The notes beneath the pieces were generated by a model that saw only the letters and a program-made list of their open reading frames with translations, had not been told where the DNA came from and did not search any database. Shown piece by piece: positions 35,489-42,929 of a stretch of DNA of 64,000 nt. Positions within the stretch are counted from its first letter, which is position 1; every line of letters starts with the position of its first letter. Source of the stretch: Deltaproteobacteria bacterium (GTDB lineage: Bacteria > Myxococcota_A > Polyangia > Polyangiales > JADJMO01); assembly GCA_025363655.1 (NCBI GenBank), contig JANYDK010000071.1, forward strand, positions 186,001 to 250,000, in the 5' to 3' direction. The translations under genes were made by a program, and so were the position numbers.

Positions 35489-36049
35489 TCACGCCGCCTT
35501 GCTACCGACTTGCTTCACGGCTTCGATCTCGATTTCGATGTCGATGCGATCACCGACCATCACGCCTCCGGCTTCGAGCACTTGGTTCCAGGTGAGACCG
35601 AAGTCTTTGCGTTCGATCTTGGTCTTGGCGGTGAAACCGACGCGCTCGTTGCCCCACGGATCCTTGGCGCGGCCCGTCTCTTCGACCTCGAGCGCCACTT
35701 CGCGGGTGATGCCGCGGATGGTGAGGTCTCCGAGGACGCGCGAGCGCTCACCGCCGAGCGACTCGACGCTCTTCGCCTTGAAGGTGAGCTCGGGATAGGT
35801 AGCGACGTCGAAGAAATCGGCCGACTTGAGGTGCGTGTCGCGATCGGCGACGCCGGTCTGGATGCTCGAGGCGTCGATGACGACGTCGACCGAGGCGCGC
35901 GAGAAGTCACCGTCGGGCGCGAGCACCGTGCCGCTCCAACGCGCGAACTGCCCGCGCACTTTGGAGATGACGAGGTGACGAACCGAGAAGTGGATGCCGG
36001 AGTGGCTGGAGTCGATCTCGTAGCGTACGGCGTTGGAAATGTTGGACAT
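35489..36049 (-). CDS. YceI family protein
   Basis: 186 residues of the YceI lipocalin-like beta-barrel family: YEIDSSHSGIHFSVRHLVISKVRGQFARWSG in pieces, SSIQTGVADRDTHLKSADFFDVATYPELTFKAK, and DLTIRGITREVALEVE, the conserved body of the family, which binds isoprenoid-type lipids in known members. Unlike many YceI proteins it has no signal peptide, so it is probably cytoplasmic. AAGGAG lies 9 nt before the ATG. It is divergent from the XylR-type activator gene and has a good sigma-54 promoter match at 36101-36117, so it is probably the activator's target. Confidence 0.95.
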   Translation of the reverse strand: MSNISNAVRYEIDSSHSGIHFSVRHLVISKVRGQFARWSGTVLAPDGDFSRASVDVVIDASSIQTGVADRDTHLKSADFFDVATYPELTFKAKSVESLGGERSRVLGDLTIRGITREVALEVEETGRAKDPWGNERVGFTAKTKIERKDFGLTWNQVLEAGGVMVGDRIDIEIEIEAVKQVGSKAA

Positions 36050-36100
36050 GGGATGAGCTCCTTCGAGAAGGCCCGTCGACCGGGCGATGCCTTCCCCTAG

Positions 36101-36117
36101 AGCATCGGCCGGGCCAG
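36101..36117 (-). promoter_or_regulatory. Candidate sigma-54 (-24/-12) promoter of the YceI gene
   Basis: On the minus strand CTGGCCCGGCCGATGCT matches the -24/-12 consensus YTGGCACG-N4-TTGCW at all but two positions, with GG and GC exactly 10 nt apart. Transcription would start near 36090, about 40 nt before the YceI ATG at 36049. The divergent gene encodes a sigma-54 activator, which makes the assignment more credible. Confidence 0.65.
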
Positions 36118-36169
36118 CGAGGCTCGTCCTGTAGTTTCCATGACTTACGGCATGGCCGGCCGAGGCGCC

Positions 36170-36184
36170 CTATCAATATGATAG
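36170..36184. promoter_or_regulatory. Inverted repeat, possible binding site of the XylR-type activator
   Basis: CTATCA-ATA-TGATAG, an exact 6-bp inverted repeat about 53 bp upstream of the candidate -24 element of the YceI gene and 29 bp before the activator's own ATG. AT-rich in a GC-rich genome. A second repeat, TCTCA-TTT-TGAGA at 36192-36204, overlaps the ribosome binding region of the activator gene and could mediate autoregulation. Confidence 0.5.
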
Positions 36185-36212
36185 AGTCGATTCTCATTTT
36201 GAGAGGAGCCTG

Positions 36213-37865
36213 ATGCGCGTCGCCGATCTCGATCTGAGAGAGCTGCTGCAGTTCGAGCCGAAGGGCGGCGTGATGACCTTCGGCGGGCAGCGCACCCTCC
36301 TCTTCGACGCCGTCGCGCTCGGCATTCTACGCAAGGAGTTGATCGCCACGCTCGGCGTCTCGGCGGCGCGCGGGGTGCTCACGCGCTTCGGTTACGTACA
36401 CGGACGACGCACGGCCGAGACGATGCGCGACGCATTTCCCTGGGACGACGAGGGCGAGTGGAAGCGCGCCGGTGCCAAGCTCCACTCGCTCGCGGGGCTG
36501 GTGGTCGCCGAGGTGCCGGAGGCGAAGGCAGCGAGCGATGGACCCTTCGCCGAAGGCAATTGGCACGAGTCCTACGAGGCCGAGCAGCACTTGCTCCACC
36601 TCGGCCAAGCGAGCGAGCCGGTGTGCTGGACGCTGACCGGCTTCGCCAGCGGCTATCTCTCGTTCTGCAACGGACGCGAGATTTACTGCGTGGAAGATCG
36701 CTGTCGAGGAAAGGGCGACGCCGTTTGTCACGTCGTCGGTCGTCCACGCGAAGAGTGGGGCGCGGCCATCGACGGGCACTTGCCCTTCTACCAAACGCAC
36801 TGTCTCGACGCGGCGCTGAGCGAGCTGACCGCCGAGCTGAAGCGCGTCGAGCAGAAGCTGCGTGCCCAGAGGTCAGCCAAGCGCGCGCCCGATCGCGAGG
36901 CAGAGGCGCTCGGGATCATCGCCCAGAGCGCCGGCATGCAGCGCGTGCTCCAACTCTCGCGACGCGTCGCCAAGGTCGATTCGACCGTTCTCATCACCGG
37001 CGAGAGCGGCGCCGGCAAAGAGCGCGTCGCGCACCTCATCCACGTCGAGTCGACGCGCTCGGCGGGACCGTTCATCGCCATCAACTGCGGCGCGGTCCCC
37101 GAGGGTCTCCTCGAGTCGGAGCTCTTCGGGCACGCCAAGGGCGCCTTCACCGGCGCCTCGCAAGATCGCCCCGGGCTCTTCGAAGCGGCCAACGGAGGCA
37201 CGCTTTTTCTCGATGAAATCGGCGAGGTGCCGCCGCCGATGCAGGTGAAGTTGCTGCGGACGCTGCAAGAGCGCGAGGTGCGGCGCGTCGGCGAGAACAA
37301 GAACCGCCACGTCGACGTACGCGTGCTCGCGGCGACCAACCGCGATCTCCTCGCGGAGGTGAACGCGGCGCGGTTTCGGCAGGACTTGTACTATCGCCTC
37401 CGCGTCGTCGAGCTGCGCGTGCCTCCGTTGCGAGAGCGGCGCGACGACATCTTGCTCCTCGCGCGCACCTTCATGAACGAGTCGGCAAGGCGCGCCGGGC
37501 GGAAGATCTCCGGCCTCACGCCGCGCGCCGCCCAGCAGCTCGTGCGCTACGGATGGCCGGGAAATGTACGTGAATTGGAGAACGCGATGGAGCGCGCGGT
37601 GGCGCTCTCGGCGGGGACCTGGCTCGACGTCGAGGACCTGCCGGAAGAGATCGGCGTCGCGCCGCCGAGCACCTATGCGACGGGAGAGATACGGACGCTC
37701 GAAGACATGGAGCGTGAGTACATCGTCGCGGTGCTCGGCGGCGCGGGCGGAAACAAAGCCAAGGCGGCGGAGCTGCTCGGGATCGGGCAGGCGACGCTGT
37801 ATCGGAAATTGAAGGAGATCGAGGTCACGAAGGAGACGAACGAGAAACGAAGGACGAAGAAGTAG
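36213..37865 (+). CDS. XylR/DmpR-type sigma-54-dependent transcriptional activator
   Basis: 550 residues. Sensor part: XylR_N (about 10-105; GGQRTLLFDAVALGILRKELI) followed by a V4R domain (about 110-180; CWTLTGFASGYLSFCNGREIYCVEDRCRGKGDAVCHVVG in pieces, with the Cys pattern that may bind metal). The AAA domain (about 225-460) has Walker A GESGAGKE (263-270), the sigma-54 contact GAFTGA (310-315), and FLDEIGEV. A Fis-type HTH (AAELLGIGQATLYRKLKE) ends the protein. Family members are activated by small aromatic molecules bound to the sensor part. It probably drives the divergent YceI gene. Its ATG follows GAGAGGAG by 4 nt. Confidence 0.95.
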   Translation: MRVADLDLRELLQFEPKGGVMTFGGQRTLLFDAVALGILRKELIATLGVSAARGVLTRFGYVHGRRTAETMRDAFPWDDEGEWKRAGAKLHSLAGLVVAEVPEAKAASDGPFAEGNWHESYEAEQHLLHLGQASEPVCWTLTGFASGYLSFCNGREIYCVEDRCRGKGDAVCHVVGRPREEWGAAIDGHLPFYQTHCLDAALSELTAELKRVEQKLRAQRSAKRAPDREAEALGIIAQSAGMQRVLQLSRRVAKVDSTVLITGESGAGKERVAHLIHVESTRSAGPFIAINCGAVPEGLLESELFGHAKGAFTGASQDRPGLFEAANGGTLFLDEIGEVPPPMQVKLLRTLQEREVRRVGENKNRHVDVRVLAATNRDLLAEVNAARFRQDLYYRLRVVELRVPPLRERRDDILLLARTFMNESARRAGRKISGLTPRAAQQLVRYGWPGNVRELENAMERAVALSAGTWLDVEDLPEEIGVAPPSTYATGEIRTLEDMEREYIVAVLGGAGGNKAKAAELLGIGQATLYRKLKEIEVTKETNEKRRTKK

Positions 37866-39038
37866 TCAGTTCGCCGCGAGGAAGATCTTCTCGACGTACG
37901 ACTTCACCGACGCCGGCGGCTGGTAGAACGTGTACGCGCTGTGCGAGGCGAGGCCGTTGCGACCGCCGAGGAAGTCCCAGATCTGCGAGCGGAGAATCGA
38001 CTTCATGCGCGCGCCGGCGAAGACGACGTGCATGTGGCGGATCTCCGACGAGGGCCAGCCGTTGGAGCCGGGGTTGCGATAGAAGGCGGCAAATCCCAGC
38101 TTGTCGAGCCGTGCCAGGAGCGCGCGCACCTGCGACTCGTTCAAGCCTCTGACGCTGATGTCGGTGGCGGCTGAATAGGCGTGACCGTCGTAGACGCCGT
38201 CCTGCGCATGCGTTCCCGCCGAGGCCGCGGCCGAGCCGATGGTCTGCATGATGCGCGCAGAGGAGATGCCGGCGCAGCGAAGACGGTCGGACGCGATCGG
38301 GTGGAGGCCCCACTTCAACACCGACGCGACGTGCGGGCAGGCCGAGGTCGGTTCGGGCGTGGGAGCCGACTTGCAGTGATCGTCGCTGCCGGCCGCGGCG
38401 ACGACGCAGCCAGAGCCGCAGACGCTGACCACCGACGCGTGACCCGGCCCGCTGCAGCGATAGAGCGTGTTCGGGCTGCCGTAACCGACCTTGTCACCAC
38501 CACAGTAGTCACCGCTTTTTGCCGACGATTCGCAGGTCGGCGGCGGCTTGGGGTTGCAGTAGTCGTCGCTGCCGGCCGCGGCGACCTTGCAACCGTAGGC
38601 GCAGACGCTCGCCAACTTCGCGGCAGTGCTCGGTCCGGTGCATCGATAGAGGCGGCTCGACGAACCGTTCGTCACCTTGTCACCGCCACAGTAAGCGCCG
38701 ACCTTCGCGCTGCCGCTGCAGTGCGGAACGAGGCTGAGGCTCTCGGCGCCGCGATCGTCGGGGGCGAGACCATCGGCGAGGAGCTGCGCGCCGTCGTCGA
38801 GCGTCGACTCGTAGGGGACCACCTCTTCGTCCGCGAGCACCGCCACGAGACCGTCGTCGAAGTCGTCGGCGAGCTGATCGTCCTTCGGGTGCTCGTCGGT
38901 GAGATCGTCCTTCACCTGATCGGTCTCTTGCGGACCTTCGACCGAGCCGACGCAGCCGAGACCGGTCCCGAAAGAGCCGAGAGAGAGAGCGAGCACGAGA
39001 GCAAAACTGGAGGAGGAGGTGCGGAGTTGGGTGGGCAT
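37866..39038 (-). CDS. Lipoprotein with two six-Cys modules and an M15-like peptidase domain
   Basis: 390 residues. Signal peptide with lipobox Cys29 (GTGLGC), an acidic linker to about 100, then two copies of a Cys module (about 106-161 and 168-222) with YCGGDKV, LYRC, C-x3-C and GSDD-x-C. The C-terminal domain (235-365) has H286-x6-D293 and H335-x-H337 in GHAYSAATDISV and EIRHMHVVF, the Zn-ligand arrangement of the M15/hedgehog peptidase fold, which acts on peptidoglycan peptides. The combination suggests a surface-anchored cell-wall enzyme. It converges on the XylR-type gene, whose stop codon it abuts. Confidence 0.78.
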   Translation of the reverse strand: MPTQLRTSSSSFALVLALSLGSFGTGLGCVGSVEGPQETDQVKDDLTDEHPKDDQLADDFDDGLVAVLADEEVVPYESTLDDGAQLLADGLAPDDRGAESLSLVPHCSGSAKVGAYCGGDKVTNGSSSRLYRCTGPSTAAKLASVCAYGCKVAAAGSDDYCNPKPPPTCESSAKSGDYCGGDKVGYGSPNTLYRCSGPGHASVVSVCGSGCVVAAAGSDDHCKSAPTPEPTSACPHVASVLKWGLHPIASDRLRCAGISSARIMQTIGSAAASAGTHAQDGVYDGHAYSAATDISVRGLNESQVRALLARLDKLGFAAFYRNPGSNGWPSSEIRHMHVVFAGARMKSILRSQIWDFLGGRNGLASHSAYTFYQPPASVKSYVEKIFLAAN

Positions 39039-39260
39039 GCCTTCCCCTCAGCAGAGGTCGTGCCGAACCCGCGGGTCACACGAACCACCATGAATTCTCG
39101 ACCTTTCGTCATCGAGAAGACGCTCGCGTTCGGCGTGGCACGATCTCCCGGATCGTTGTCGGTGTCGCATCACGATCTCCGCGATCGTACGGCGCTGAAG
39201 CGTGCGCACACCGGCGCTCACGGGGCGCTCACCCTTGATGGCGTGATATCCTGGGAGTGA

Positions 39261-40757
39261 ATGGCGCCCGACGCCGATCGTTCGCCACGCATGGTCGGAC
39301 GCTACGCACTTCATGGCGAGATCGCCTCGGGTGGGATGGCGACCGTTCACTTCGGCCGTCTCCTCGGACCGGCCGGATTTTCCCGCACCGTGGCGGTGAA
39401 GCGGCTGCACGCGCATCTGGCGAAGGATCCCGAGTTCGTCTCGATGTTCCTCGACGAGGCGCGGCTCGCGGCGCGCATTCGCCATCCGAACGTGGTGCCG
39501 ACGCTCGACGTCGTCTCGACCGAGGGAGAGCTCTTCCTCGTGATGGAGTACGTGCCGGGCGAGTCCCTCTCGAGACTCGTGCGAGCCGCGCACGACGACG
39601 GGACGACGATTCCATTTCCGATCGCCGCCGCCATCGTCGCCGGCGCGCTCCACGGCTTGCACGCGGCCCACGAGGCGACCAACGAACGCGGCGAACCGCT
39701 CGATTTGGTGCACCGCGACGTCTCGCCACAGAACGTCTTGGTCGGCGTCGATGGCGCGGTGCGGGTCCTCGATTTCGGCATCGCCAAGGCGGTCGGACGC
39801 GTGAGCACGACGCGCGATGGACGCCTCAAGGGCAAGCTCGCCTACATGGCACCCGAGCAGCTTCGTCATGGCATCGTCGACCGTCGCACCGACATCTACG
39901 CGGCCGGCGTGGTCCTTTGGGAGCTCCTCGCCGACGCGCGTCTCTTCGAATCCGAGAGCGAAGGCGGGCTCATCACCAAGATCCTCGAGACGCGCATCGA
40001 AGCGCCGGGCAAGCGTCGACGCGACGTTCCTCGAGAGCTCGACGAGCTGACGATGCGCGCGCTCGCGAAAAATCCGGGCGATCGCTTCGGCACCGCGCGG
40101 CAGATGGCGCGGGCGATCGAGTCGGCCATCGCCTGCGCGAGCCCGAGCCAGGTCGGCGAGTGGCTCGAACGAATCGCCTTCGATTCGCTCGAAGGACGCG
40201 CGCGCGTCGTCTCGGCGATCGAGAGCGGCGAGATGACCGCGAGCGAATCGACGACGGCGCCGATCGTCGCTGCGGCACCTGCCGCCGAGGCCGACACGAC
40301 CATCGAGGCGATGCCGAGCCACGCCGAGCCACGATCATCCAGGAAATCGTGGGTCGCCCTCGCCTTCGTGGCCGGGCTCGCGGTCGCGGGTCTGGCGGTG
40401 CTCGGCGTGCGCGCGCTCGGGAGGAACGACGTCTCCGATCGTTCGACGTCGGGCGCTTCCGGCACCACCACCCACGCCGCGACGACCTCGGCCTCGCCGA
40501 CGATCGACACCACGACGAGCGCGAGCGCGAGCACGACGACGAGCGCGTCGGCGAGCGTGACGACCACCATCCTCGCGTCCGTCGCGCCTCGTCCCTCGAT
40601 GCCACCCCCGAAGACCGTCCACGCAACGACCATCCACGCAACGACGATCCCGAAGGCGACGGCCACGGCGACCGCGACGGCGCCGTGCACGGTGAAATCG
40701 TACGTCGATGCCGCGGGTGTGAAACACTACGTCAACGACTGTTCGAAGAAGCCGTGA
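39261..40757 (+). CDS. Transmembrane Ser/Thr protein kinase
   Basis: 498 residues. Kinase domain at 14-280: GEIASGGMATVHFG loop, VAVKRLHAHL, VMEYVPG, LVHRDVSPQNVL catalytic loop, VLDFGIAKA, GKLAYMAPEQL, then a short linker. A single transmembrane helix at about 365-388 (WVALAFVAGLAVAGLAVLGV) is followed by a Ser/Thr/Ala-rich extracytoplasmic segment and a terminal Cys-containing motif (CTVKSYVDAAGVKHYVNDC), common in Polyangiales kinases. HRDVSPQN (rather than HRDLKPEN) is typical of the same group. Its stop overlaps the next gene's start (TGATG), so the two are coupled. Confidence 0.95.
   Translation: MAPDADRSPRMVGRYALHGEIASGGMATVHFGRLLGPAGFSRTVAVKRLHAHLAKDPEFVSMFLDEARLAARIRHPNVVPTLDVVSTEGELFLVMEYVPGESLSRLVRAAHDDGTTIPFPIAAAIVAGALHGLHAAHEATNERGEPLDLVHRDVSPQNVLVGVDGAVRVLDFGIAKAVGRVSTTRDGRLKGKLAYMAPEQLRHGIVDRRTDIYAAGVVLWELLADARLFESESEGGLITKILETRIEAPGKRRRDVPRELDELTMRALAKNPGDRFGTARQMARAIESAIACASPSQVGEWLERIAFDSLEGRARVVSAIESGEMTASESTTAPIVAAAPAAEADTTIEAMPSHAEPRSSRKSWVALAFVAGLAVAGLAVLGVRALGRNDVSDRSTSGASGTTTHAATTSASPTIDTTTSASASTTTSASASVTTTILASVAPRPSMPPPKTVHATTIHATTIPKATATATATAPCTVKSYVDAAGVKHYVNDCSKKP

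Positions 40758-41570: not shown

Positions 41571-42929
<1,359 letters not shown>

Follow-up and report, generated by a model that had tools for sequence, protein, structure and literature searches.

A predicted aromatic-responsive sigma-54 switch between a yceI gene and its divergent activator, with a conserved operator pair

The phenol sensors DmpR/CapR, MopR and PoxR drive phenol-degradation operons. The YceI family, by comparison, is made up of base-induced or isoprenoid-binding periplasmic proteins, and in the open-licence literature searched we found no sigma-54/RpoN or XylR-type control of yceI and nothing specific that joins pirin and YceI under the control of quinones or phenols. For XylR of the Pseudomonas putida TOL plasmid, the excerpt of PMC3469447 that we draw on describes an inducer that both activates the target and raises self-repression at the divergent Pr/Ps promoters. 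For DmpR, the excerpt of PMC7264223 has His100 and Trp128 on either side of the phenol hydroxyl, and Trp128 in turn between phenol and zinc, gives XylR a Tyr in place of His100, and locates the upstream activating sequences (UASs) 100-200 bp from the promoter.

The locus described here resembles XylR Pr/Ps, as far as the excerpted account goes, in that an activator of the aromatic-responsive sigma-54 type faces a divergent sigma-54 promoter, which in our case is predicted. It differs in its target, an envelope YceI protein rather than a catabolic regulator, in its operator, CNNTCA-N3-TGANNG in two copies, unlike XylR, and in its sensor, which has a phenol-type His91 where XylR has Tyr (PMC7264223, excerpt). 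With DmpR/CapR, MopR and PoxR the activator shares sensor homology, the pocket His and Trp and the Cys3Glu zinc site, but unlike them it has no degradation operon next door. By its sequence the activator is of the XylR/DmpR kind, which is already known, and its effector response is predicted; the target set of its subfamily is apparently undescribed in the open-licence literature.

The genome comprises 9.03 Mb in 150 contigs. In the window (the whole 64-kb stretch of DNA that was analysed), yceI and the activator gene are separated by a divergent gap of 163 nt, and the locus has the following features:

35489 to 36049, minus strand: yceI (186 aa), the divergent target, with its ATG at 36049 (PF04264, E 6.3e-50, Pfam)
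36101 to 36116, minus strand: predicted -24/-12 (sigma-54) promoter of yceI, TGGCCCGGCCGATGCT, with an expected start near 36090
36135 to 36147, plus strand: weak IHF-like element, TTTCCATGACTTA, 2 mismatches to the IHF consensus WATCAAN4TTR, between promoter and operators
36170 to 36184, no strand: putative operator copy 1, CTATCAATATGATAG, a conserved inverted repeat
36182 to 36187, plus strand: TAGAGT, presumed -10-like element of the activator's own promoter, with TANNNT near the same offset in relatives
36192 to 36204, no strand: putative operator copy 2, TCTCATTTTGAGA, covering the region where the activator's start and leader are expected
36213 to 37865, plus strand: sigma-54 activator (550 aa) with XylR_N, V4R, AAA+ and Fis-type HTH domains (Pfam), with its ATG at 36213

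The YceI lipocalin-like domain spans residues 10-177 of the yceI product and positions 1-150 of the profile, which is nearly the whole protein, and a ribosome site, GAAGGAGC, precedes the ATG. An earlier note made from the sequence had named the divergent gene as a XylR_N-V4R activator, and all four expected domains were indeed matched above the Pfam cut-offs (PF06505, 3e-31; PF02830, 3.2e-9; PF00158, 3.6e-71; PF02954, 2.1e-13), with GAFTGA present in the translation. One RpoN, identified by its DNA-binding domain, is encoded in the genome. Since the next probable gene on each side of the pair is convergent, the unit consists of yceI and the activator only. Elsewhere in the window, a Ser/Thr protein kinase gene (39261-40757, plus strand) lies close to an FHA-domain sigma-54 activator (41571-42929, minus strand), the two being a likely kinase-FHA activator pair, and a -24/-12-like site, CGGCACGACCTCTGCT (39050-39065, minus strand), is found just ahead of the start of the minus-strand ORF 37866-39038.

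Related loci were drawn from two sources. The N-terminal sensor was searched against 183 genomes of the order, 77 of which had a match, and the 62 ortholog regions fetched were the nearest of these order-wide matches; with upstream DNA, this order-wide set comprised 62 loci (61 fetched and the window). Named genomes were also scanned, which gave 358 relatives, and the best 80 of these were retained. The resulting 143 loci (80 named, 62 fetched and the window) became 129 non-redundant loci on removal of L186 and L121 (no upstream DNA), of L113 (start unclear) and L126 (distant) by hand, and of ten with identical upstream DNA. An activator tree of 128 rows was built with FastTree, its supports being approximate.

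The sigma-54 promoter consensus is TGGCACGN4TTGCW, with GG-N10-GC. In TGGCCCGGCCGATGCT, at 36116-36101 on the minus strand, the GG and GC are exact and spaced by 10, as had been claimed, and six of the eight other consensus letters agree, leaving two departures. Taken alone, this is only a fair -24/-12 match, and five matches of equal quality occur over both strands of the window, this one included. It is conservation across orthologs that raises the promoter match and both repeats above chance. A -24/-12 match agreeing in six or more of the eight optional letters was found on the divergent strand in 31 of the 62 order-wide loci and on the opposite strand in none (shuffles 0.57, max 3). In the merged set the corresponding figures were 60/129 and 0 (shuffles 1.26, max 4), and at a score of at least 5 they were 94/129 against 6, a match of that score being absent from the divergent strand in 35 loci. 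This one-sided conservation, 60 vs 0 of 129 loci, agrees with the earlier prediction of a sigma-54 promoter facing yceI. The activator in the window belongs to a well-supported clade of 15 tree rows, 12 of which have yceI divergent; the YceI proteins in the same place in the 11 others are 53-75% identical to that of the window. All 12 loci have a -24/-12 score of at least 5 (9/12 of at least 6) between -97 and -117 relative to the start of the activator, and the site in the window shares the register of its clade.

The two inverted repeats that had been reported in the gap are both real, at 36170-36184 and 36192-36204, but they are not two different elements as had been supposed. Both contain TCA-N3-TGA, at 36173-36181 and 36194-36202, with starts 21 bp apart, and on their sequence they are two copies of one operator, CNNTCA-N3-TGANNG. 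The footprint to be expected would therefore cover about 36170-36204 rather than 36170-36184 alone. The strict pair, TCANNNTGA-N10-14-TCANNNTGA, has a single occurrence in the 9.03 Mb genome, at 36173-36202, and the reversed control pattern has none. A TCR-N3-YGA pair with copies 19-23 bp apart and within 100 bp of the activator start was found in 43 of the 62 order-wide loci (dinucleotide shuffles mean 0.1, max 2). Among the merged loci the pair was strict in 82/129 (shuffles 0.12), rising to 109/129 when one mismatch was allowed (shuffles 3.25), compared with 18 and 183, respectively, of 7122 control windows taken elsewhere in the same loci. It was absent even with one mismatch in 20 loci, including L128, the only one of the 12 YceI loci of the window's clade to be without it (11/12). 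The starts of the two copies were 20, 21 or 22 bp apart, about two helical turns, in 73 of the 82 strict pairs.

Drawn as a logo, the motif lengthens to CNNTCANNNTGANNG, and the outer positions covary as would be expected of the site of a protein dimer. Complementarity across the dyad reached 76/106 at -2/+2 of site 1 and 53/106 at -4/+4 of site 2, against 42.0 and 36.1 expected from permuted columns, while the core-adjacent positions (-1/+1) showed no excess complementarity over permuted columns (39 vs 34.1 and 28 vs 25.9), all of these counts coming from related loci and hence not being independent. If the repeats were instead hairpins of the promoter or of an RNA leader, and the -24/-12 match due to chance, one would understand why the window holds five matches of such quality and why a TANNNT overlaps site 1. 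However, a chance match would not be conserved on one strand only (60 vs 0 of 129), and this, with the fixed place of the elements and the covarying dyad flanks, brings the explanation close to refuted; we regard it as extremely improbable.

As in XylR/DmpR-type activators, the sequence has palindromic UASs upstream of a -24/-12 promoter, although at about 87 and 108 bp from the expected start they lie slightly nearer than the 100-200 bp given for DmpR (PMC7264223, excerpt). This closeness could mean that some other regulator, one controlling the activator gene, binds the TCA-N3-TGA pair, and that the activator itself binds elsewhere. Such a regulator might also account for strict sites away from the activator: of those in 20 related genomes (39, vs 4 for the reversed control), 13 were at the activator and 26 away from it. 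We nevertheless consider it quite unlikely, since the pair stays with the activator across 13 or more switches of the YceI label along the tree, has its only occurrence in the window's genome at the activator, and is accompanied by an activator HTH segment, LGIG-ATLYRKL, that is nearly invariant. Near-perfect pairs away from the fetched activators were seen at G047:C225:6754-6782, G033:C38:167595-167623 and G028:C13:35880-35910, and may be extra targets or paralogous switches.

Between promoter and operators, an IHF match with at most one mismatch was found in 17/86 gaps (shuffles mean 3.2, max 9). Despite this enrichment in relatives, the site in the window was set aside as support because TTTCCATGACTTA has two mismatches. 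The gap lengths cluster by eye at 44-45, 54-58, 65-69 and 86-87, and helical phasing of the gap is suggestive only (P 0.048, from 15 distinct values in 40 loci, with one outlier of more than 120 bp dropped). On the activator side, a TANNNT hexamer directly follows site 1 in 46/109 loci, compared with 0/109 control stretches, a signal that is partly shared with the operator's own flanks. If TAGAGT is the -10 element, the activator start would lie near 36194, inside site 2. Since a sigma-70 consensus scan upstream of the activator found no promoter, the case for self-repression rests on position: the operators lie where their occupancy would interfere with the promoter of the activator itself, copy 2, which the earlier note had placed over the ribosome binding region, being over the expected start and leader. 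From this position, and by analogy with XylR, for which self-repression is established (PMC3469447, excerpt), it is probable that the activator represses its own synthesis.

The first 226 residues of the activator align with CapR (6iy8, E 1.9e-34) and MopR (5kbe, E 6.1e-33), with H91 and W117 opposite positions 106 and 134 of the MopR chain. Of 128 activators, 115 have His at 91 and 93 have Trp at 117, the other 35 having Leu, Val, Ile or Phe at 117. The V4R zinc site of three Cys and one Glu (C138, E161, C164 and C172) is invariant (128/128), and we take these residues to be the equivalents of the MopR zinc ligands, in the register of the structure alignment. The homology to CapR and MopR, together with the retained phenol-contact His and zinc ligands, upholds the proposal of an aromatic-type sensor, and the kept pocket residues favour a phenol-type effector for the activator in the window, while relatives with Leu at 117 may differ in effector. 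The same switch could also respond to a hydrophobic molecule other than a phenol, such as a lipid, an isoprenoid quinone or a flavonoid in the XylR_N-V4R pocket, with YceI carrying that lipid. YceI proteins bind isoprenoid lipids, several of the exchanged targets described below are not aromatic enzymes, and W117, whose DmpR counterpart stands between phenol and zinc, is not kept in 35 of 128 activators. Against these points stand the phenol-sensor His and zinc ligands, which are kept, and the LigB, tyrosinase, pirin and P450 neighbours, so that we hold a non-phenol effector to be unlikely, though a good deal less so than a foreign regulator at the operators.

The divergent genes were classified by tblastn against representative neighbours, the representatives being checked with Pfam. 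Since the loci are the best 80 of 358 named and the nearest 62 fetched, the counts apply to the closest relatives. YceI was the commonest classifiable divergent gene, lying within 2.5 kb in 49/129 loci, so that the suggestion that a YceI target is unusual for this class of activator fails within its own subfamily. In 20 of these 49 loci a LigB-type ring-opening dioxygenase is also present, as in Myxococcus and Corallococcus. Pirin (pirin/quercetinase) was divergent in 29 loci, a flavocytochrome (cytochrome c3 plus flavoprotein) in 8, mostly in Geobacterales, a DUF4398 lipoprotein in 5, GroEL in 5, P450 in 3 and an M20 peptidase in 3, with single cases of a tyrosinase, an exporter of the fusaric/aromatic-acid type and a molybdo-FAD subunit; in 23 loci the divergent gene had no class. 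The GroEL, DUF4398 lipoprotein, ice-binding-like protein and M20 peptidase targets do not point to aromatics. On the activator tree the YceI label changes at least 13 times (8 on starred branches alone), compared with 38.8 for shuffled labels. Since the operator and promoter stay with the activator while the payload changes, the sites are tied to the activator and not to any one target.

Three genomes carry two activators of the subfamily: the Acidobacteria MAG BJ1 (L150 and L173, with pirin-like and YceI neighbours), Archangium lansinium (L145 and L175, with LigB/YceI and amidohydrolase) and Archangium violaceum (L146 and L156, with LigB/YceI and tyrosinase). At L112 the divergent ORF lies some 340 nt ahead of the activator and is a 162-aa frame of near-repeats like MRSATKPGMRSAMRTA. 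The activator of L180, from a record titled Comamonas sp. KCTC 72670, falls inside Myxococcus on the tree, the assembly being probably mislabelled or contaminated, and L130, L184, L137, L195 and L196 (labelled Gemmatimonadetes, Holophagaceae and Planctomycetota) have the same kind of activator and neighbour, through transfer or a binning error.

Taking the sequence evidence together, we consider it likely that yceI and the activator form a self-contained aromatic-responsive switch of the XylR/DmpR kind, which drives yceI and probably represses itself, and that YceI counters phenolic or quinone stress. The XylR_N-V4R sensor would bind a phenol-like or quinone-related aromatic, and activator dimers would occupy the two tandem 15-bp palindromes, whose centres lie at about -87 and -108 relative to the start expected for yceI, a binding suggested by their conservation. 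With effector, the AAA+ domain would oligomerise and open the RNA polymerase-sigma-54 complex at 36101-36116, allowing YceI to be made. Since the same two sites cover the -10 and start region of the activator, their occupancy would also hold the activator down, much as with XylR at the divergent Pr/Ps. In the envelope, YceI itself would counter stress from phenolics or quinones. In Ralstonia solanacearum, yceI is induced by methyl gallate, a phenolic, and a deletion mutant grows less well under it, according to the excerpt of PMC8472277. Together with the neighbouring LigB, tyrosinase and pirin genes of relatives, this response points by association to stress from phenolics or quinones.

More broadly, and with appreciably less assurance, we propose that the locus may belong to a widespread and apparently undescribed phenolic-stress cassette, in which one sensor-activator, operator pair and sigma-54 promoter are retained while phenol- or quinone-handling genes (YceI, pirin, LigB dioxygenase, tyrosinase, P450, flavocytochrome c and exporter) are exchanged. 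The cassette would be shared by Myxococcota, Geobacterales and contigs that bear the labels Acidobacteria, Planctomycetota and Nitrospiraceae. If this proposal is true, YceI would be a phenolic/quinone-stress protein by regulatory association. To our knowledge, the inducing signal of the widespread YceI proteins is mostly unknown, and the present locus, in which a sensor of the phenol type would be coupled to yceI by way of a defined predicted promoter and operator, offers a testable one. In myxobacteria, which carry many uncharacterised sigma-54 activators, the operator motif would allow the targets of this activator subfamily to be read from sequence.
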